IMG/VR virus record: IMGVR_UViG_3300031857_000094
Coordinates: 1-64,000 of that record
Source: a virus
Length of the DNA stretch: 64,000 bases
Reading direction: 5' to 3' (one strand)
A program made the position numbers and the translations under genes. A model generated the notes under the pieces. That model worked only from the letters and a program-made list of their open reading frames with translations. It did no database searches and was not told the DNA's origin. Below, in pieces: positions 50,887 through 59,233 of this stretch (the first letter of the stretch is position 1; the number at the start of each line of letters is the position of its first letter).

Positions 50887-51801
50887 TTATTCATCGTCCT
50901 CAGCCAGCTTGTTGAAGAAATCCAAATCGTCATCTTCATCAATAGTAGGCTTCTTTGCAGGAGCAGCCGTCTTACCAACTGCTGGAGCCGCAGACGGACG
51001 CGGAGCAGGACGCTCAAAAGGGATATCGTCATCCTCACTCTTACGAGCAGCGCCGTTTGGTTCAGACAGAACCTTTTCCAAACGCTTCTTGAGTTCATCA
51101 TAGCTCTTGAACTTATCAGCAGCTACGAGTTCAGCAAGTGAAAACTGCGTCTTCCAGATTGCTTCCATATCATCATCGTCATCGAGCAGCGGAGCTGGTT
51201 CATCGAACTCAGACTTGTCGTAGTTACGATAGCCTTCAACCTTACGAATCTTCAGCTTGAAGTTAGCGCCAGCCCACAGATCGAATGGATTCGTCGGCTT
51301 TTCGTCTTCGAACTCAGGATTCATCTTCTCGTTGATCTTGTCGAAGATCTTCTTACCAAACTTGTAAAGGAAAACCTTTCCTTCGTTCTCAGGATGAGCG
51401 GGATCCTTGACAACATAGATGTTGGCGATATAGTTCAAGCGACGCTTCTGCTTACGAGCAATCTCCTTGTCCTTGTCGTTACCTGAGTTCCAGAGCTTGG
51501 AGTTATACTCAGCGACAGGATCGGTCTGATTGAGAGTAGTCAGAGAGTTTTCGATATACCATCCGCCTGGACCTTGGAAACCATGATTCCAGATACGGAC
51601 CCACGGAAGTTCTTCGTTAACAGGTGCGGGAAGGAAGCGAATGATAGCGTATCCGTTACCAGCCTTATCAACTTCTGGCTGCCAGTAGCGATCATCAGAC
51701 GAAGATCCCTGTTCCTTGTTGGCGAGCTTGTTGATTTCTTTGGTGAGACGCTCCAGCGAAGAAGTGCGCTGACGCTTGAGGGCAGAAAATGATTCGTTCA
51801 T
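50887..51801 (-). CDS. gp32: Single-stranded DNA-binding protein gp32
   Basis: This 304-residue protein (T4 gp32 is 301) coats ssDNA in replication, recombination and repair. The basic N-terminus ALKRQRTSSLERLTKEINKL is the cooperative binding arm. The core has YAIIRFLPAP, VRIWNHGFQGPGGWYIENS, and KFGKKIFDKINEKMNPEFED. The acidic tail (DDDDLDFF, AEDDE) recruits partners such as gp59. T4 gp32 binds zinc through three Cys and one His after the WYIE segment; here that loop (LTTLNQTDPVAEYNSK) has no cysteine at all. It has its own strong promoter (51850-51878) and terminator. Confidence 0.94.
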   Translation of the reverse strand: MNESFSALKRQRTSSLERLTKEINKLANKEQGSSSDDRYWQPEVDKAGNGYAIIRFLPAPVNEELPWVRIWNHGFQGPGGWYIENSLTTLNQTDPVAEYNSKLWNSGNDKDKEIARKQKRRLNYIANIYVVKDPAHPENEGKVFLYKFGKKIFDKINEKMNPEFEDEKPTNPFDLWAGANFKLKIRKVEGYRNYDKSEFDEPAPLLDDDDDMEAIWKTQFSLAELVAADKFKSYDELKKRLEKVLSEPNGAARKSEDDDIPFERPAPRPSAAPAVGKTAAPAKKPTIDEDDDLDFFNKLAEDDE

Positions 51802-51849: not shown

Positions 51850-51878
51850 ATCATATAAGTTATATAGCGTGTTGTCAA
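51850..51878 (-). promoter_or_regulatory. Sigma70-like promoter for gp32
   Basis: The minus strand has TTGACA at 51878-51873, 17 bases, then TATGAT at 51855-51850, about 50 bases before the gp32 ATG. The -35 box overlaps the last codons of gp59. The context TCTTGACAA is shared with four other promoters in this window. Confidence 0.78.
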
Positions 51879-52471
51879 GACGCAAATACATCACGCATAA
51901 CTTTTTTTATCGTAGCCTTCTCGACCTTTACGAATGGGCGATACTTACTCAGCTGACGATAGAACTCAGGCCAGACAACTGGATCGTCGATTTCGTTGTT
52001 CCATTTGTCTAGAACATCAAATGTAATATCAAAGGCAATAACAGTTTCGGCTGCAATCTTGTTCGCCATATACATCTTCAATAATACTGGATGCGTCTTT
52101 TCAACCAGAAGAATACGGCTTACGCTGTTATTGCATTCATCAAGTAATGTTTCCAGATCTTGCTTCAGATAGTATGAAAAGGCTTCCATACGTTTCTGCC
52201 AGTTGAGATAAACTTTCTCAGACTCTGGACCATTCATTTCTCCAACCCAGCGAACTCCTGCGTTGGATACAAAGTTAGCAACGAAGAAATCTGTTAGTTC
52301 TTCATCACTGTATTTACGTTCCAACTTACGAAAGAGATACTGATCCTTTCGCTTGAGGAACGATTCCTCGCTGATCTTGCGGATCTTGCCACCATACTTC
52401 ACAAAGTCATAATCAGAAGTGAAGTGTAGCTTGAGCGCCTGATAGCGGCTGTAGGCTTTCATCCCTTCCAT
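51875..52471 (-). CDS. gp59: DNA helicase loader gp59
   Basis: This 198-residue protein (T4 gp59 is 217) loads the gp41 helicase on gp32-coated DNA. It contains AYSRYQALKLHFTSDYDFVK, FFVANFVSNAGVRWVGEMN and YYLKQDLETLLDECNNSV, in the usual order of N-terminal HMG-like and C-terminal helical domains. The ATG at 52471 overlaps the upstream stop (TAATG); a second ATG three codons in is also possible. It sits directly before gp32, as in T4. Confidence 0.9.
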   Translation of the reverse strand: MEGMKAYSRYQALKLHFTSDYDFVKYGGKIRKISEESFLKRKDQYLFRKLERKYSDEELTDFFVANFVSNAGVRWVGEMNGPESEKVYLNWQKRMEAFSYYLKQDLETLLDECNNSVSRILLVEKTHPVLLKMYMANKIAAETVIAFDITFDVLDKWNNEIDDPVVWPEFYRQLSKYRPFVKVEKATIKKVMRDVFAS

Positions 52472-53406
52472 TAGATGAACGCAATTTCAGATTTCCAACC
52501 GCGATCAAAGAACTTTTGATAACGCCAATACTCTGGCGTCTTATCACTATTCGGACGAAGAGTTTTGTTCTTAATAAGATTAAAAACTTCGCGGCTCATG
52601 AACATCTTATCATTCGCATAATCGTATGACACGCAGCAATGCTTGAAGTCGAAGCTGTCGATGAGTTCCTTGCGCGTATTATATTTCGTATAGATGTACT
52701 GAAGAGCAGTGCGACCAAGTGATACTGTTTTTTCGATCTTGTCGTTCTTGAAATATTCCTTATCGTTGATCTTGGTAGAAGTAGGGCTTAACGCAGATTC
52801 CTTCACTGTCAATAGATTCAACGCCAACTCATTACGAGAATTATTAAGTAGGAATATGTCGAAGTCTTTTACAACTTCATCGTTCATCATGGAAGCAAAG
52901 CAACCACCAGCAACGACAACGCCAGACATATCGAAGTCATATGTAGGCATGTGTTTATGAATATACGAACGAATAGATTTCTTCACTTCCATGATCTGAA
53001 GTTGTTCATCATCGCTAAACAGTTTCTTAGCAAGCACATCTTTCTGAGCCTGCTCCGTGTAGTATTCATCAACATATGCGGGTGCGCCCATTGCTCCACG
53101 CATCCCAATCCCACCAGCTCCTCCAGAACTGACAGAATATTGTCCTGCTCCTCCTAGAGCACTAGTATGAACTGATCCAGTCGTAGGTAACATTTGAGCA
53201 ATCGTTTCTATTATCGCCTGTCGTCTAAACGCGGGTTCCAGATATTCAATGGTCATCCTACTAACAATCTTAGATTCATTAGTAGTTCTGTTGCGAATGG
53301 CTATTGAATCTGTTGCATAGTCTACATCAAAAGATATATCGTTGATCTTGATACTCGTAACCCAGTTCAAGAACTCTGACCAGTTTTCTGAGGGTGATCC
53401 GAACAT
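52471..53406 (-). CDS. Nucleotidyltransferase-like phage protein
   Basis: This 311-residue protein is conserved next to gp33 and gp59 in T4-like aquatic phages. Its middle reads VVVAGGCFASMMNDEVVKDF then DIFLLN, the Gly-Gly then Asp-x-Asp pattern of the polymerase-beta nucleotidyltransferase fold. The C-terminus has FDFKHCCVSYDYANDKMFMS and TPEYWRYQKFFDRGW. A Gly-rich loop precedes the domain (about 85-105). The target could be tRNA, protein or a small molecule. It overlaps gp33 and gp59 by one base each. Confidence 0.7.
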   Translation of the reverse strand: MFGSPSENWSEFLNWVTSIKINDISFDVDYATDSIAIRNRTTNESKIVSRMTIEYLEPAFRRQAIIETIAQMLPTTGSVHTSALGGAGQYSVSSGGAGGIGMRGAMGAPAYVDEYYTEQAQKDVLAKKLFSDDEQLQIMEVKKSIRSYIHKHMPTYDFDMSGVVVAGGCFASMMNDEVVKDFDIFLLNNSRNELALNLLTVKESALSPTSTKINDKEYFKNDKIEKTVSLGRTALQYIYTKYNTRKELIDSFDFKHCCVSYDYANDKMFMSREVFNLIKNKTLRPNSDKTPEYWRYQKFFDRGWKSEIAFI

Positions 53407-53648
53407 TAGATTGGTAACCTTGATCCAGTGCGTTTGATAAGATTGAGAGTCATAGCTTCTGACTGAAGCAGCTTACGCATGGCTGGAGTCATGAGCTTCG
53501 ATACGTTCTCGAACTCCAGTCCAGTCTTTTCACATACATCGGTAATCGCTTCAAGATAGCTCATACCCTTATCGCTGATACGTTCTTCTACCATAGACAC
53601 GAATGTATTAGAACTCATAATGCTTGCTACAGCAGCTGTCTCTGTCAT
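53406..53648 (-). CDS. gp33: Late transcription co-activator gp33
   Basis: This 80-residue protein (T4 gp33 is 112) bridges RNA polymerase to the sliding clamp for late transcription. The core SYLEAITDVCEKTGLEFENV and the end MTPAMRKLLQSEAMTLNLIK match the family; the last hydrophobic residues serve as the clamp-binding tail. It overlaps the cupin gene upstream by four bases. Its presence fits the TATAAATA-type late boxes found in this window; the partner sigma gp55 is outside. Confidence 0.88.
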   Translation of the reverse strand: MTETAAVASIMSSNTFVSMVEERISDKGMSYLEAITDVCEKTGLEFENVSKLMTPAMRKLLQSEAMTLNLIKRTGSRLPI

Positions 53649-54172
53649 TTATCATATCCTTCATAGGGAACATTATCTAGAGCGCTGTCGATATCGACTT
53701 TGATTCTTCCAGCTTCTGCGATCTCAGCAAGAGTGCGTCCGCATCCAATACATCTTTCACCTGATTCATCGAGCTGACAAATCTTAACGCACGGTGACTT
53801 CTTAGGAACAGTGATAGGAACAGTTGCCTTACCACCGACGCTGCGGCGCACGATATCTTCGCTGATAGCTTCTGGATAATAGAGTTCTAGTGCAACACAG
53901 TCTTCAACGCAGTTGAACCAATGGAACTCGCCAGGACGGACAGTAGTAAAATCGCCTGCTCGAAGTGTAGTAATGTCGGTGAGATCATAGTTATTCTTTG
54001 CGACATGGATTTCCAACACTCCACTGATGACATAGAATCCGTTCCACTTGTGTTCATGCTTATGCTCCGAGCAGCGATAGCCAGCTTTGATATTGATCTT
54101 ATGGAGTTCGACGAGTGGCGTCTGAATAAGAACGCTCGTGTCGCCCCATACTTTTCCAGTGATATTTCCCAT
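53645..54172 (-). CDS. Cupin - DUF1289 fusion protein
   Basis: This protein is 175 residues from ATG 54172, two bases after the upstream stop, with AAGG in place; a longer frame begins at 54214 but would overlap the neighbour. The N-terminal cupin (about 10-105) has the metal set HKHEHKWNGFYVISG and PGEFHWF. The C-terminal part (about 120-160) is DUF1289-like, with four cysteines in CVKICQLDESGERCIGCGR. DUF1289 is normally a small stand-alone protein. The pairing beside KDO-8-P synthase hints at sugar-related metabolism, but function is unknown. Confidence 0.78.
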   Translation of the reverse strand: MGNITGKVWGDTSVLIQTPLVELHKINIKAGYRCSEHKHEHKWNGFYVISGVLEIHVAKNNYDLTDITTLRAGDFTTVRPGEFHWFNCVEDCVALELYYPEAISEDIVRRSVGGKATVPITVPKKSPCVKICQLDESGERCIGCGRTLAEIAEAGRIKVDIDSALDNVPYEGYDK

Positions 54173-54174
54173 AA

Positions 54175-54357
54175 TTAACCTTTCGGAACACAAGCCAGTT
54201 TGTATTGATCCCACATTCCACGACCGTATTTCTTTTCTTCGATGAACTTCAGCGCATACATGCAGGATTCGTATGTATTGAACTCTTGGAACTTTACATT
54301 CTGACCGTTGCCAGCATTGCCAGAAAAGTATGTGATGACTATGAGAACGTAGATCAT
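54175..54357 (-). CDS. Small exported or membrane-anchored protein (60 residues)
   Basis: The first 15 residues (MIYVLIVITYFSGNAG) are hydrophobic and suit a signal or anchor sequence. The remainder (FNTYESCMYALKFIEEK, two Cys) is a compact helical domain like small periplasmic proteins common in phages. It overlaps kdsA by four bases and is followed by the cupin gene. Function unknown. Confidence 0.65.
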   Translation of the reverse strand: MIYVLIVITYFSGNAGNGQNVKFQEFNTYESCMYALKFIEEKKYGRGMWDQYKLACVPKG

Positions 54358-55181
54358 CGCCTTAAACTCCGTTTGGAGATATAATCCAATTCTATTAAAT
54401 CATATAGTAGTTGCTCGAAATTGTCAAGACGAACCATGTTCGGACCATCGCTTGGAGCGGATTCTGGATTCTGATGAACTTCAATGAACAGAGCAGCCAC
54501 GCCAACAGCTACAGCAGCGCGGGCCATCGTAGGCACGAACTGACGTTGTCCGCCAGAGCTTGTGCCATTACCACCAGGAAGCTGAACTGCGTGAGTGCAA
54601 TCCATGATGACACGGTCAGTATATTGCTTCATCACTTCTAGCGAACGCATATCGACCACAAGATTATTGTAGCCAAACGTTGTTCCGCGTTCAGTGAACA
54701 GATACTTATCACAGCCAAACGTTCTTAGCTTCTCAGCTACGTTTGCCATTTCCCACGGAGATAGGAACTGACCCTTCTTCACGTTGACTGGCTTACCACT
54801 CAGTGCAGCAGCTTGAATCAGGTCAGTCTGTCGGCAAAGGAACGCAGGAATCTGAATGATATCAGCTTGAACTGCTTCGCATTGCCAAGGTTCGTGAACG
54901 TCCGTGAGAACCTCGATTCCTCGAGCACGGACGGCCTCCATTCCGTAAAACGCCTCGTCGAAGCCGCCACCTCTACTACTATTCGCGGAACTTCGATTTG
55001 CTTTATCGAAAGAGGTCTTATAAATGAAGTTGATTTCTGTATCGAATCTATTACCAACGCTGAAGCAGATATCACGCAGTGCAGTAGCCATTTCCACTGC
55101 GTGATCCTTAGTTTCAAAAGCACAAGGTCCAGCGATAATGCTCAGGGGTTTATCATTCCCGCAGTTGTCATAGAAGCTCAT
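54354..55181 (-). CDS. kdsA: 3-deoxy-8-phosphooctulonate (KDO-8-P) synthase
   Basis: This protein is 275 residues from ATG 55181 (E. coli KdsA is 284). It condenses phosphoenolpyruvate with arabinose-5-phosphate to make KDO-8-P, the precursor of the LPS inner core. Signature segments are KTSFDKANRSS, TDVHEPWQ, IQIPAFLCRQTDL, NVKKGQFLSPWEM and FGYNNLVVDMRSLE. The Cys in IIAGPCAFE marks the metal-dependent class II (E. coli has Asn here); the other ligands are the HAVQ His, the FIEVH Glu and the SDGPN Asp. It lies in an early operon with the cupin-DUF1289 gene. A host-derived auxiliary gene affecting LPS is the likely reading. Confidence 0.93.
   Translation of the reverse strand: MSFYDNCGNDKPLSIIAGPCAFETKDHAVEMATALRDICFSVGNRFDTEINFIYKTSFDKANRSSANSSRGGGFDEAFYGMEAVRARGIEVLTDVHEPWQCEAVQADIIQIPAFLCRQTDLIQAAALSGKPVNVKKGQFLSPWEMANVAEKLRTFGCDKYLFTERGTTFGYNNLVVDMRSLEVMKQYTDRVIMDCTHAVQLPGGNGTSSGGQRQFVPTMARAAVAVGVAALFIEVHQNPESAPSDGPNMVRLDNFEQLLYDLIELDYISKRSLRR
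54399..54427 (-). promoter_or_regulatory. Sigma70-like promoter inside kdsA
   Basis: The minus strand has TTGACA at 54427-54422, 17 bases, then TATGAT at 54404-54399, within the 3' end of kdsA. It would transcribe the 60-residue gene, cupin-DUF1289, gp33, the nucleotidyltransferase-like gene and gp59. Confidence 0.72.
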
Positions 55182-55183
55182 GA

Positions 55184-55768
55184 TTAGTCCCACAGAGAGC
55201 GATAGTACCTACCAAACAAACGAAGACCGTTTTGAATACGTTGATTGTGTGCATCTAGTGCATCTTTGTCCCAACCACTTACTTCGGCATAGAACAGATC
55301 ATAGTCGTTATCGTTCTTGAGTTGTTCGAACGTCCATACGAGTTCGTCCATCACCCAGTTATAGCGATCCTGTGCGTTCGTGTCGCTGTGACCAAAATCA
55401 GTTTCATCACCCTTACCGATGTGAGGAACGTCTTCAGCATCTGGATGAAAGAAACCGTGATTCGTGTCACGAAGCTGAACCAGCATGGGATGAATGATAA
55501 AAGCGAGCGTGTGATCCATGGACCAAGTATCGTAAGGATCAATGCGAACCTTTACATCGCGCTCACGATCGCCGATCATTTTGTTGACTGTTGCGTTTAG
55601 AACATCTTGAATGATATCGCAGATACGCTCGATGAACTTATCAGTCTTGGTGTATTCACTATCTTGAACAGACCAATATGACTTGTCGTGTTTCCACTCC
55701 ATATACTTGTCGAATAAAGTGTATGCGCTGATATGAGTTGTGCGATAAGGACCAATGTAAACTTTCAT
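55184..55768 (-). CDS. Conserved phage protein of unknown function (194 residues)
   Basis: Start chosen at ATG 55768, with GGAG upstream; the open frame extends into the tRNA gene only as read-through. The product begins MKVYIGPYRTTHISAYTLFD and holds VRIDPYDTWSMDHTLAFIIH, PMLVQLRDTNHGFF and DALDAHNQRIQNGLRLFGRY. The pattern recurs in T4-like aquatic phages without an assigned role. The many His and Asp could form a metal site. It ends two bases before the kdsA start. Confidence 0.72.
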   Translation of the reverse strand: MKVYIGPYRTTHISAYTLFDKYMEWKHDKSYWSVQDSEYTKTDKFIERICDIIQDVLNATVNKMIGDRERDVKVRIDPYDTWSMDHTLAFIIHPMLVQLRDTNHGFFHPDAEDVPHIGKGDETDFGHSDTNAQDRYNWVMDELVWTFEQLKNDNDYDLFYAEVSGWDKDALDAHNQRIQNGLRLFGRYYRSLWD

Positions 55769-55783
55769 AACAATCTCCAAAAA

Positions 55784-55859
55784 TGGTTCGGGGTGATGGG
55801 ATCGAACCACCAACCTACGGATTCAAAGTCCGCTGTTCTACCAATTGAACTAACCCCGA
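55784..55859 (-). tRNA. tRNA-Gln (anticodon TTG)
   Basis: A full 76-base cloverleaf can be folded. The acceptor stem is TCGGGGT/ACCCCGA with discriminator A and an encoded CCA. The D arm is GTTC/GAAC, the anticodon stem GCGGA/TCCGT with loop CTTTGAA (anticodon TTG), and the T arm GGTGG/CCATC with loop TTCGATC. It reads CAA and CAG Gln codons. It lies between the 74-residue and 194-residue genes. It is the only tRNA seen in the window. Confidence 0.95.
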
Positions 55860-55863
55860 ATGA

Positions 55864-56088
55864 TTACTTACCTGCGTGTTCGGTGAGAAGTTGAGTTACG
55901 TTCTTGACTGTTGGGTCGCGAATGTCGTCGATGAACTTCATAAGCTCGTCGGCTTTCTTGATAACTTCAGCTGTGGTTGGAAATGGTTTCTGCTCACCGC
56001 CGCGTTCAGCAGCGATAAGATATTCCGCATCGCACATCGACTGTGCCATTTGAAGAACGGAAAGACGGATATGCTTTTCTTCGGACAT
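55864..56088 (-). CDS. Small conserved phage protein (74 residues)
   Basis: This acidic, helical protein (MSEEKHIRLSVLQMAQSMCD, then TTAEVIKKADELMKFIDD) has no recognisable domain. GAGG precedes the ATG. It follows the tmRNA gene by about 20 bases and ends four bases before the tRNA-Gln, so all three may share the transcript from 56394-56422. Similar short genes occur in T4-like genomes without known function. Confidence 0.68.
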   Translation of the reverse strand: MSEEKHIRLSVLQMAQSMCDAEYLIAAERGGEQKPFPTTAEVIKKADELMKFIDDIRDPTVKNVTQLLTEHAGK

Positions 56089-56109
56089 AGTGAATACCTC
56101 AATGTAGGA

Positions 56110-56387
56110 AAGTGGGGGGATTCTGTTTCCAAGCTCCCCCCGAGCTCATTCTTAGGCAGCTAGTGCGTAAGAGATAGGTGCATTATCGTTTGCATCTAAA
56201 ACGCGCTTTTGGTCTCTTCGCATCTTTACTACGCACGTCGATCCTAGTTCACCCCCATCAAAAACAGTAGCATCCAATCCTTACAGCGATGGTTCACATT
56301 GGGCTTCCTACTGCTTATGGTGGAGGCGGCGGGTACTGCCCCCGCGTCCGAAACGTTTATTCCATACGCCTCAACGACCTTAGCATA
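56110..56387 (-). ncRNA. ssrA: Circularly permuted (two-piece) tmRNA
   Basis: tmRNA rescues stalled ribosomes and tags the peptide. The acceptor piece comes first (about 56387-56318): T-stem GCGGG/CCCGC, acceptor strand CGCCTCC, discriminator A and CCA at 56320-56318. The coding piece starts at 56256 with GGGGGTG, which pairs fully with CGCCTCC and gives the G3-U70 pair that alanyl-tRNA synthetase needs. Its tag frame runs from GCA at 56193 to TAA at 56152 and encodes ANDNAPISYALAA. A 7-bp GGGGGGA/TCCCCCC stem follows the tag. The spacer between pieces (56317-56257) must be removed. The T-loop GGCAGTA is not the usual TTC type. The outer ends are approximate. This layout is typical of alphaproteobacterial tmRNA. 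Confidence 0.92.
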
Positions 56388-56393
56388 GTATTT

Positions 56394-56422
56394 ATTCTAG
56401 CTTGCTTTACTCTGATTGTCAA
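56394..56422 (-). promoter_or_regulatory. Sigma70-like promoter of the tmRNA gene
   Basis: The minus strand has TTGACA at 56422-56417, 17 bases, then TAGAAT at 56399-56394, placing the start near 56387. An AATAAATA late-like box overlaps the -10 (56389-56396), so the gene could be read both early and late. Confidence 0.8.
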
Positions 56423-56431
56423 GAACTCATT

Positions 56432-57766
56432 TCACAAAAAATTTTCTAGGAGTTCTACGACATCTGGAAAGGTTTCTTTCCAGTCTGTACCACGAAGTTT
56501 ATCTAGGGCGTCGCTTCGCGCGATGAAACTTTTTATATTTTGGGCGCAAACTTCTTCAGAGTCAGAATTGTATGTGTTCTTAACATAGCCCAAAGTCATG
56601 GCTTTGTGTTGCAGTTTTAGATCAGATTCTTCATATGCTTTGATTATCTTGTCTTTGGCTTTGCGTGGATACCATCTCAAATCGTAGCACTTTGGCGAGC
56701 GCAGTAATCTAAACGAAAACTTATCGAATCCAAAATTTTGGAAATGAGGAACTACTCTCATAGGAGCATACACGTCAAATATGCCTACACAAGAAGTGAT
56801 GGTACAGAACATATTAGAATGTTTCTTCAATCGAAGAATGTTTTCGTTCAGTTTTCTCCAGCTTGATGGATATCTGATTAGTTCGTATCTTTTTTCAGTA
56901 TCATCCACGCTTATACCAAATCGAACTTCTTTGAAGCGATCGAGTTTCTGTAAAATCTTGTCATTGATAACAGTTAGATTCGTGTCGTAAACCAATCGTA
57001 TCTTTTCAGCCTGACCGCATGAAATTAAACGATCTAGCATTTCTTCGTGTGCTGGTTGAAGAAATGGTTCTCCGCCAGTAATGTATACATGCAACAATCT
57101 ATTTTTAATTGTTTCGAACTGTTCCCACCAGATCGGAGAATCGTGCCATCGAACAAAATCGCTTTTGAGTTTGTTTCCTTCAGCGTGGATATGATATTCT
57201 TTAGGTCCAACCCAAAACGTATTCTTACCAGTCAAAGCAACATGATCAGAATACCACAGAGTAGAATATTGCGGCTCGCATTGAATACATTTAGAATTGC
57301 ACAGATTGGAAAAGCGAATATCGAGAGCTATCGGTAGATTGCTGATGGATCCATCAGAGTTCATGATTCTGCTTGCGTCTTCGAGGTTTACTCCGTTTTC
57401 TTGATCTTTCATGTGAGTAAACGTTCGACCTATGCGATAAGACAAACCGCCAATAGTTTCTGGTTCGAAGTATTCTTCCTGTTGCAGTTTTCTGTTGGCA
57501 TCTTCTTTATCCCAACAGACACGACACACTGGATGTCTTTTGTCTTGGGATTGGAAAAGCCTCAGTTCTTTATGAAGATCGCTGTTAAGAGCTTGTTCAA
57601 ATGTATGGGTGAGAATGTTCATCACTTCACCCGTAGATTCATCTTTACCTATTCCATGATCTTTAGTGTTATCATTTCCAGAAAAACAGCAGATCTTGAA
57701 ATTACCCGAGGGATTGATTTGAATTGAAGCCCACGGAAGAGCGCAAAAAGTATTCTTAGAAAACAT
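56432..57766 (-). CDS. Radical SAM protein with twitch/SPASM-like cysteine clusters
   Basis: This protein is 444 residues from ATG 57766; an ATG 11 codons earlier is possible. The N-terminal FCALPWASIQINPSGNFKIC and a CRVCW pair form an auxiliary iron-sulfur cluster pattern. The radical SAM motif CxxxCxxC is C156, C160, C163 in FSNLCNSKCIQCEP. GGEPFLQP follows for SAM binding. Such phage proteins are common in T4-like aquatic genomes with unknown targets, often peptides or nucleosides. It overlaps the nuclease gene upstream by 11 bases, and the tmRNA follows directly. Confidence 0.88.
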   Translation of the reverse strand: MFSKNTFCALPWASIQINPSGNFKICCFSGNDNTKDHGIGKDESTGEVMNILTHTFEQALNSDLHKELRLFQSQDKRHPVCRVCWDKEDANRKLQQEEYFEPETIGGLSYRIGRTFTHMKDQENGVNLEDASRIMNSDGSISNLPIALDIRFSNLCNSKCIQCEPQYSTLWYSDHVALTGKNTFWVGPKEYHIHAEGNKLKSDFVRWHDSPIWWEQFETIKNRLLHVYITGGEPFLQPAHEEMLDRLISCGQAEKIRLVYDTNLTVINDKILQKLDRFKEVRFGISVDDTEKRYELIRYPSSWRKLNENILRLKKHSNMFCTITSCVGIFDVYAPMRVVPHFQNFGFDKFSFRLLRSPKCYDLRWYPRKAKDKIIKAYEESDLKLQHKAMTLGYVKNTYNSDSEEVCAQNIKSFIARSDALDKLRGTDWKETFPDVVELLENFL

Positions 57767-58451
57767 TGCTCTTGCTTCCTTGTTCTTTCCTCCACTCATA
57801 CTGATCGCGAACGCGAATCAGTTGACGAACATAGTCGTTGCGCTTGCCTTCGAAGCAGTCGAACTCGCCTTCATCTGATACGATGAGAATGGCAAAGTCA
57901 TGACATTCAATGCCAGTGTGTTCTTCGAACATGATAGAGTATGCAGTAGCCTGAAGGAAGTAATCTGTGATCATATCTGCAGTCTTTCTCTTACGAGAAG
58001 TCTTGAAGTCGATCACCGTTACTTTGCCATCCCACTCGCAGATTAAGTCCGCGGTCCCTGCGATTCTGAGGATGTCCGAGAACATCGGCGTTTCAGACGC
58101 ATAAACAAGCTGTAAGTTTTTGTCAATACATTTCTGAACAATACGAAAACGTGCGAGTGTCGAGGGCATGATTTTCTTGGCATCTATCTCATCTCCCAGA
58201 ATGTATGATTCCATAAGATTGTGAAGTTCAGTTCCACGATTTGCAGCTTGTCTGCTAATCTTGTTAGCTTCTTCTTCACCGACACGAGCGCGCCACTCAG
58301 CGAGAGATTTTTTCTTTTCAGGCTGATCGCCGAGTAGAGTTGTGATTGATGGGTAGACGTTACCATCTGGAGTTTGATAACGTCTACCGTTTGGAGTGTT
58401 TATCTGACGGGCTCTTGGCAAGTCAATATATGGATCATGATTAAATTTCAT
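57756..58451 (-). CDS. PD-(D/E)XK exonuclease (RecB/Cas4/MGME1-like)
   Basis: This 231-residue nuclease has the motif set RGTELHNLMESYI (His for motif I), IAGTADLICEWDGKVTVIDF with catalytic Asp, then the Asp-x-Lys of DFKTSRK, and the QATAYSIMFEEHTGI helix with its Gln and Tyr. T4-like phages use such enzymes for DNA degradation or end processing. It follows phoH by 11 bases and overlaps the radical SAM gene. Confidence 0.88.
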   Translation of the reverse strand: MKFNHDPYIDLPRARQINTPNGRRYQTPDGNVYPSITTLLGDQPEKKKSLAEWRARVGEEEANKISRQAANRGTELHNLMESYILGDEIDAKKIMPSTLARFRIVQKCIDKNLQLVYASETPMFSDILRIAGTADLICEWDGKVTVIDFKTSRKRKTADMITDYFLQATAYSIMFEEHTGIECHDFAILIVSDEGEFDCFEGKRNDYVRQLIRVRDQYEWRKEQGSKSNVF

Positions 58452-58462
58452 ACTATTATATA

Positions 58463-59233
58463 TTACGCAATAACGCCGCGCTCCTCAAGATTACATCTAG
58501 TCAGGATATACTCTTTGACGAAGCCCGAACGAACAACGTCTTCCTTGTGAAACTTGACGATTTCGAAAGAACGCATCTCACCTGCAATCTTTAGCAGATT
58601 GTTCATACCAGACCCTTCACGAGTATAGTCCTTCTGTGTAAAGTCACCACAGAAGATAACACGACATCCTTCACCAACGCGAGTCATGACCGTATGGATT
58701 TCGTGGTCGCTCAGGTTTTGACACTCGTCGATGATAATGATGTTGTCGCGGAAAGTCATACCACGAAGGAATGACGTGATATCAAACTGAATGTATCCGT
58801 TCTGCTTCATCCACTCATATGGCTTATCGCAAATCTCGGAAACGATTCCTTGATACGGAGCTTCATAGACTGCTGCTTTATCCTTCGCGTTGCCAGGAAG
58901 GAATCCGATGTCGCGAGTAGGAACAACGCTGCGTAGAATCACGATTGGCTTAGGGGCATCTCCACTAAGCATAGCGTTCATGGAAAGCCACAGAGCGAGG
59001 AACGTCTTACCAGTTCCAGCGCAACCATGAAGGATTAGATTTTTGTCTGAATTGAATGCGTCAACAACTATACGTTGAGCTGCTGTTCTAGGGGATACAC
59101 GACACAAGCTAGGAATCACTGGTTGTCGATAACCAGTTCCCTTTGCTCTCTTCTTTTGTTTTCGTTCTTTTCTCGTCAAATACTTCGATGCTTCGGCTTC
59201 AAGAAAGGCTTCGTCTATGATTGCAGTCTGCAT
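58463..59233 (-). CDS. phoH: PhoH-like ATPase
   Basis: This 256-residue protein has Walker A GCAGTGKT near residue 69-76, Walker B IIIIDECQN near 167, and the PhoH-typical FRDN, CGDFTQKDY and GSGMNNLL segments. PhoH-like proteins are frequent in aquatic phages; roles in RNA or phosphate-stress metabolism have been proposed but not settled. The N-terminal 35 residues are basic (RKERKQKKRAKG). It lies 11 bases before the nuclease gene. Confidence 0.93.
   Translation of the reverse strand: MQTAIIDEAFLEAEASKYLTRKERKQKKRAKGTGYRQPVIPSLCRVSPRTAAQRIVVDAFNSDKNLILHGCAGTGKTFLALWLSMNAMLSGDAPKPIVILRSVVPTRDIGFLPGNAKDKAAVYEAPYQGIVSEICDKPYEWMKQNGYIQFDITSFLRGMTFRDNIIIIDECQNLSDHEIHTVMTRVGEGCRVIFCGDFTQKDYTREGSGMNNLLKIAGEMRSFEIVKFHKEDVVRSGFVKEYILTRCNLEERGVIA

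Follow-up and report, generated by a model that had tools for sequence, protein, structure and literature searches.

A permuted, predicted two-piece tmRNA gene without the first pseudoknot in a T4-like phage contig

Described phage tmRNAs and the present locus

Transfer-messenger RNA (tmRNA) genes are borne by phages such as the cluster C mycobacteriophages, where, unlike the gene described below, they are one-piece and follow the standard gene order. A two-piece tmRNA was described for the T4-like phage Melnitz by Buchholz et al. in 2022, and that article gives 53 two-piece phage tmRNAs, 50 of which are marine or aquatic (PMC9004378); the view taken from the initial annotation of the present DNA, that phage tmRNA is known only as a one-piece molecule, is hence not supported. 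Among the entries of a tmRNA database from 2025, 79 are unique phage sequences (PMC11915505). Here, a stretch of 64,000 nucleotides (nt), hereafter called the window, was analyzed, which covers positions 1 to 64,000 of the IMG/VR record IMGVR_UViG_3300031857_000094. This record is a linear virus contig of 82,568 bp with T4-like genes, namely those for tail sheath, large terminase, baseplate/tail tube cap, gp32, gp33, gp59, PhoH, and ThyX. On its minus strand, the window carries a circularly permuted tmRNA gene of the alphaproteobacterial type at 56111-56426. Judged from sequence comparison, it is probably a functional two-piece tmRNA gene of the phage itself, which has been inherited mainly vertically within a group of T4-like phages.

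The gene was called by ARAGORN as a permuted tmRNA (tmRNA*) at 56061-56414 (-) with the tag ANDNAPISYALAA. A covariance-model search, which had been proposed as a check in the initial annotation, was performed using Infernal with the Rfam model alpha_tmRNA (RF01849), and it matched 56426-56111 (-) over model positions 1-355 with 117.8 bits (E = 1.7e-31) against a gathering score of 50. The model tmRNA_permuted (RF04321) reached 102.5 bits in the window (E = 7.5e-19; cut-off of 47). The earlier proposal that this T4-like phage encodes a permuted tmRNA of the alphaproteobacterial type was thus borne out by ARAGORN and two Rfam models. Along the gene, an acceptor piece (56318-56379, -) is followed by a 61-nt intervening sequence (56257-56317, -), whose removal is expected, and then by a coding piece (56114-56256, -). 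The acceptor piece consists of the P2 5' strand, the T-arm with a GGCAGUA loop, and the 3' acceptor strand, and terminates in CGCCUCC-ACCA, the encoded CCA of which ends at 56318. The coding piece begins with GGGGGUG at 56256 and contains the 5' acceptor strand, D-loop, P2 3' strand, tag, and 3' pseudoknot. The acceptor stem closes across the permutation point with the pairs G1-C72, G2-C71, G3-U70, G4-C69, G5-C68, U6-G67, and G7-C66, among which G3-U70 is the alanine identity pair (U70 at 56324, -). The tag reading frame (56152-56193, -), composed of 13 codons and UAA, starts at the alanine resume codon and is followed by the 3' pseudoknot (56114-56147, -), in which a GAGCUC/GAGCUU stem is formed and a GGGGG loop pairs with a downstream CCCCC. 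The acceptor pairing including G3-U70, the CCA, and the tag frame had all been read correctly before, with right coordinates and pairings. The precursor exhibited a folding z-score of -3.8. A hairpin that extends the acceptor stem is located in the intervening sequence of the window; in the relatives, the intervening sequence ranges from 58 to 142 nt and is unconserved.

The likeness to the alphaproteobacterial tmRNA (RF01849, Caulobacter type) extends to the T-loop GGC[AG]GUA, the AGGAUCGACG D-loop, the permuted order, a tag starting with ANDN, and the 3' pseudoknot, whereas the gene in the window differs from it in the absence of the first pseudoknot (PK1) and in an aromatic-ALAA tag end, which is uncommon in the sampled bacteria. 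The methylophage Melnitz (MZ577097) also possesses a permuted, alphaproteobacterial-type tmRNA, shares the slot PhoH-PDDEXK-tmRNA-gp33-gp59 with the window, and similarly has TTGACA with TATAAATA upstream of the tmRNA. Melnitz differs in a D-loop-to-tag distance of 70 nt, by which a PK1-length segment is kept, in its tag (ANDNYVPVDYALAA), and in a reported glutamine riboswitch, for which no Rfam match was obtained in the window. The tmRNA of pelagiphage HTVC008M is permuted and occupies the same slot as in the window, downstream of the exonuclease gene, but bears the tag ANFNEYALAA. This HTVC008M gene (NC_020484.1, 145161-145370; locus L298, ~6228) is absent from the annotation of its record.

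The segment at the PK1 position

In the window, a linker of 17 nt (AAAAGCGCGTTTTAGAT; 56194-56210, -) connects the P2 helix with the resume codon at the site that accommodates PK1 in bacteria, and PK1 itself is absent, a feature overlooked in the initial annotation. The D-loop-to-tag distance is 51 nt in the window and 50-53 nt in its subgroup and some other phages, compared with 70-75 nt for 190 of the 191 alphaproteobacterial tmRNAs and 85 nt for the remaining one. The missing segment amounts to approximately 20 nt at the position of PK1, where covarying columns were detected among 154 aligned bacterial sequences. The spacing pattern of PK1 length was found in 223 of 385 alphaproteobacterial genomes, and nearly all of the matches listed read as tmRNA. 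The PK1-less pattern gave 16 sites distributed over 15 of these genomes, and no site reads as tmRNA, though other PK1-less forms could be missed because the pattern requires ATCGAC and an ANDN start. The UAG just upstream of the resume codon is kept. An AAAA/UUUU pairing would be possible in the linker of the window, and inspection by eye revealed no pairing kept across the relatives that would form a replacement hairpin in the 17 nt.

Other phages in the slot, including Melnitz, keep PK1-length segments, and the loss of PK1 therefore looks derived. The PK1-less label needs six changes on the tree described below, which may be ascribed to either noise or repeated loss. PK1 is otherwise almost universal in tmRNAs (PMC1168896), and no natural PK1-less bacterial tmRNA was found described in the literature, except for that of Oenococcus oeni, which lacks helix 4, and organellar forms. 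Tagging was still efficient for an E. coli tmRNA whose PK1 was replaced by single-stranded RNA (PMC4236655), indicating that a tmRNA may remain functional after PK1 has been lost. Since the case for the importance of this pseudoknot has so far been built on engineered mutants, a tmRNA that naturally lacks it and is seemingly under selection makes a natural test of its role.

Constraint on the RNA and alternative readings

Twenty-five phage tmRNAs from which the intervening sequences were removed were aligned with MAFFT, blind to structure, and scored against the Rfam alignment structure supplemented with the 3' pseudoknot. The fraction of pairing cells was 88.1%, compared with 75.4% in shuffles, and the number of doubly changed cells was 102 versus 29, a level reached in 0 of 500 shuffles (11-27 in slid controls). 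The G3-U70 pair was invariant, being U-G in 25/25 sequences. Helices 6 and 7 of the 3' pseudoknot, which is present after the tag, were paired in 85% and 97% of the cells and exhibited double changes in 3/6 and 5/5 of their pairs, respectively. In four loci (L005, L012, L276, and L283), the acceptor stem was rewritten on both strands with the pairing kept, as read off the alignment, which misplaces two bases of L005.

The tag frame and the genomic slot were examined for 32 contigs sampled by their PDDEXK nuclease, so that they were not chosen by the RNA and the tag was disregarded. A crude ratio of nonsynonymous to synonymous polymorphism (pN/pS) of 0.65 was obtained for the tag in frame, versus 2.9 and 5.8 when the frame was shifted, and it was 0.45 in a phage set sampled by the T-loop; these figures are descriptive, as the sequence pairs are not independent. 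The variation was greatest at the third codon positions in the nuclease-chosen contigs, and ANDNAPISYALAA is encoded by seven DNA versions across ten loci. An argument from loci sharing a tag, between which all differences are synonymous, was dropped, because it was circular for loci that had been grouped by tag, and the nuclease-chosen contigs were used in its place. Shortly downstream of the PDDEXK gene, a permuted tmRNA was called by ARAGORN in 25 of the 32 contigs and detected with RF04321 above the cut-off in 6 more, so that the same slot is occupied in 31/32. That the gene is almost always present, and always in this slot, within one phage group suggests that these infections regularly require ribosome rescue and that the gene is not accidental cargo.

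If the gene functions as a two-piece tmRNA, host RNase P and 3'-processing enzymes would excise the intervening sequence, host alanyl-tRNA synthetase (AlaRS) would charge the acceptor piece, and host SmpB and EF-Tu would bring the molecule to ribosomes that have stalled on truncated mRNA. Such a ribosome would then resume at GCA, add (A)ANDNAPISYALAA, stop at UAA, and be recycled, while the LAA end would direct the tagged product to ClpXP-type proteases. The most likely use would be keeping ribosomes available during mRNA degradation in infection. Rescue after mRNA decay and a redirection of degradation through the tag had been put forward as possible roles in the initial annotation. Several observations weigh against a functional gene. 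No match to the SmpB family PF01668 was obtained, either in the record or in 16 relatives, which makes the tmRNA dependent on SmpB that is presumably supplied by the host. The tag constraint appears real but moderate rather than strict, and the phage copies score only 79-131 bits with RF01849, well below the listed bacterial scores. Further, the slot of the remaining 1 of the 32 contigs contains a sub-threshold remnant of 29.5 bits. This remnant is located at 133104-133293 of G276 (locus L274) in the usual slot, and it possibly represents gene decay.

These features could alternatively be read as those of a competitor or decoy for host SmpB or AlaRS, which would dampen the host trans-translation instead of tagging. 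Loss of PK1 could impair resumption; however, neither the tag frame nor the stop codon nor the UAG resume signal is disrupted, and the frame-specific constraint on the tag is not needed by a pure decoy, which renders this explanation unlikely. It is still harder to believe that the gene is a decaying remnant whose function was lost along with PK1, as might be speculated from the model scores below the bacterial copies and the degenerate copy in G276, since covariation, promoter conservation, and tag constraint were all observed in a mostly PK1-less set.

When contigs chosen by tag were left out, 29 of 55 distinct phage tags ended in [YF]ALAA, compared with 5 of 94 distinct bacterial tags (Fisher p = 5e-11, with relatedness not corrected for), and no tag was common to the phage and the sampled bacterial sets. 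One streamlined bacterial order carries the tag AKSDYAEYALAA; for this reason, aromatic-ALAA ends are not claimed to be exclusive to phages, and the tag in the window may match that of the true host of this phage. A scan for the tag pattern matched 28 viral contigs and gave no match in approximately 85,000 bacterial and archaeal genomes, which speaks against recent capture. On a FastTree tree of 248 short sequences, the bacterial and phage tmRNAs were all separated by one change, with a node support of 0.66. The slot and the tree together favor a gene that was acquired long ago and then passed on mainly vertically, so that any capture was probably old, and the weakly supported tree identifies neither donor nor host. 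Capture from the present host, as supposed in the initial annotation, is not supported in view of the single conserved slot across a broad T4-like group and this phage/bacterial split. The least probable explanation is a recently captured host ssrA carried as passive cargo, for which the alphaproteobacterial-type T-loop and covariance-model match would speak, but which is contradicted by a slot shared among phages whose neighboring proteins are only 35-50% identical, by the lack of a common tag, and by the one-change tree split, short as its alignment is. A broader proposal is put forward only tentatively, and we consider it more doubtful than not: that a group of T4-like phages has an old tmRNA lineage of its own, that one branch of this lineage naturally dispenses with PK1, and that its tags are often aromatic-ALAA-ended and unlike the bacterial ones. 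If true, ribosome rescue and protein turnover in infection would run on phage terms.

Promoter and gene neighborhood

Upstream of the tmRNA, a -35 hexamer TTGACA (56417-56422, -) and a -10 hexamer TAGAAT (56394-56399, -) constitute TTGACA-17-TAGAAT (56422-56394), which matches 11 of 12 sigma70 consensus positions and confirms the sigma70-like promoter noted earlier. The sequence AATAAATA (56389-56396, -), which fits the T4-late-type motif NATAAATA, overlaps this -10 hexamer. TTGAC[AT]-17-TANNN[TA] was located upstream of 31/31 distinct phage tmRNAs examined, and NATAAATA overlaps the sigma70-like promoter in at least 28 of these 31 loci, the scan window being shorter in the other three. Within the 82.6-kb record, the tmRNA is the one place where this composite occurs, and in G001, G004, G284, G285, and G281, it likewise occurs once each, at the tmRNA. 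NATAAATA alone showed no enrichment across the window (3 and 9 sites versus approximately 5 and 8 expected per strand), so that only its composite with TTGAC is informative. We infer that the composite may be used as both an early and a late promoter. The near-constant slot, composite promoter, and PK1-less subgroup were not found described in the accessible parts of the literature, and their priority is uncertain.

Relatives of 35-95% protein identity share the order orf77-PhoH-PDDEXK-tmRNA-...-gp33-gp59-gp32, with insertions. In the window, all of the following genes lie on the minus strand: the conserved upstream neighbors, a PhoH-like gene (58463-59233) and the PDDEXK exonuclease gene (57756-58451); the downstream neighbor orf74 (55864-56088), which has no assigned function and is conserved in close relatives; and the genes for a gp33-like late transcription coactivator (53406-53648), a gp59-like helicase loader (51875-52471), and a gp32-like single-stranded DNA-binding protein (50887-51801). 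In cyanophage MED4-213, PDDEXK and gp33 are adjacent with no tmRNA, and no tmRNA was found in Sinorhizobium phage phiN3 and phage C48C1. A radical SAM/SPASM gene (56432-57799) lies between PDDEXK and the tmRNA in the window, and tblastn did not detect it at this position in any close relative that was compared. A tRNA-Gln (TTG) gene is located downstream of the tmRNA (55784-55859), and many relatives also have genes for a DAHP/KDO8P-synthase-family protein (54354-55193 in the window) and a cupin-DUF1289 protein (53645-54214) conserved in the vicinity of the tmRNA. For locus L291, ARAGORN gave an implausible tag, VSATKFFAPQLV, at an RF04321 score of 99.5 bits, and the frame was probably wrongly set. 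Stenotrophomonas phage DLP_6 (KU682439.2) carries a permuted tmRNA of 136.8 bits at 102838-103059, which is far from PDDEXK and PhoH and hence probably represents a separate acquisition.
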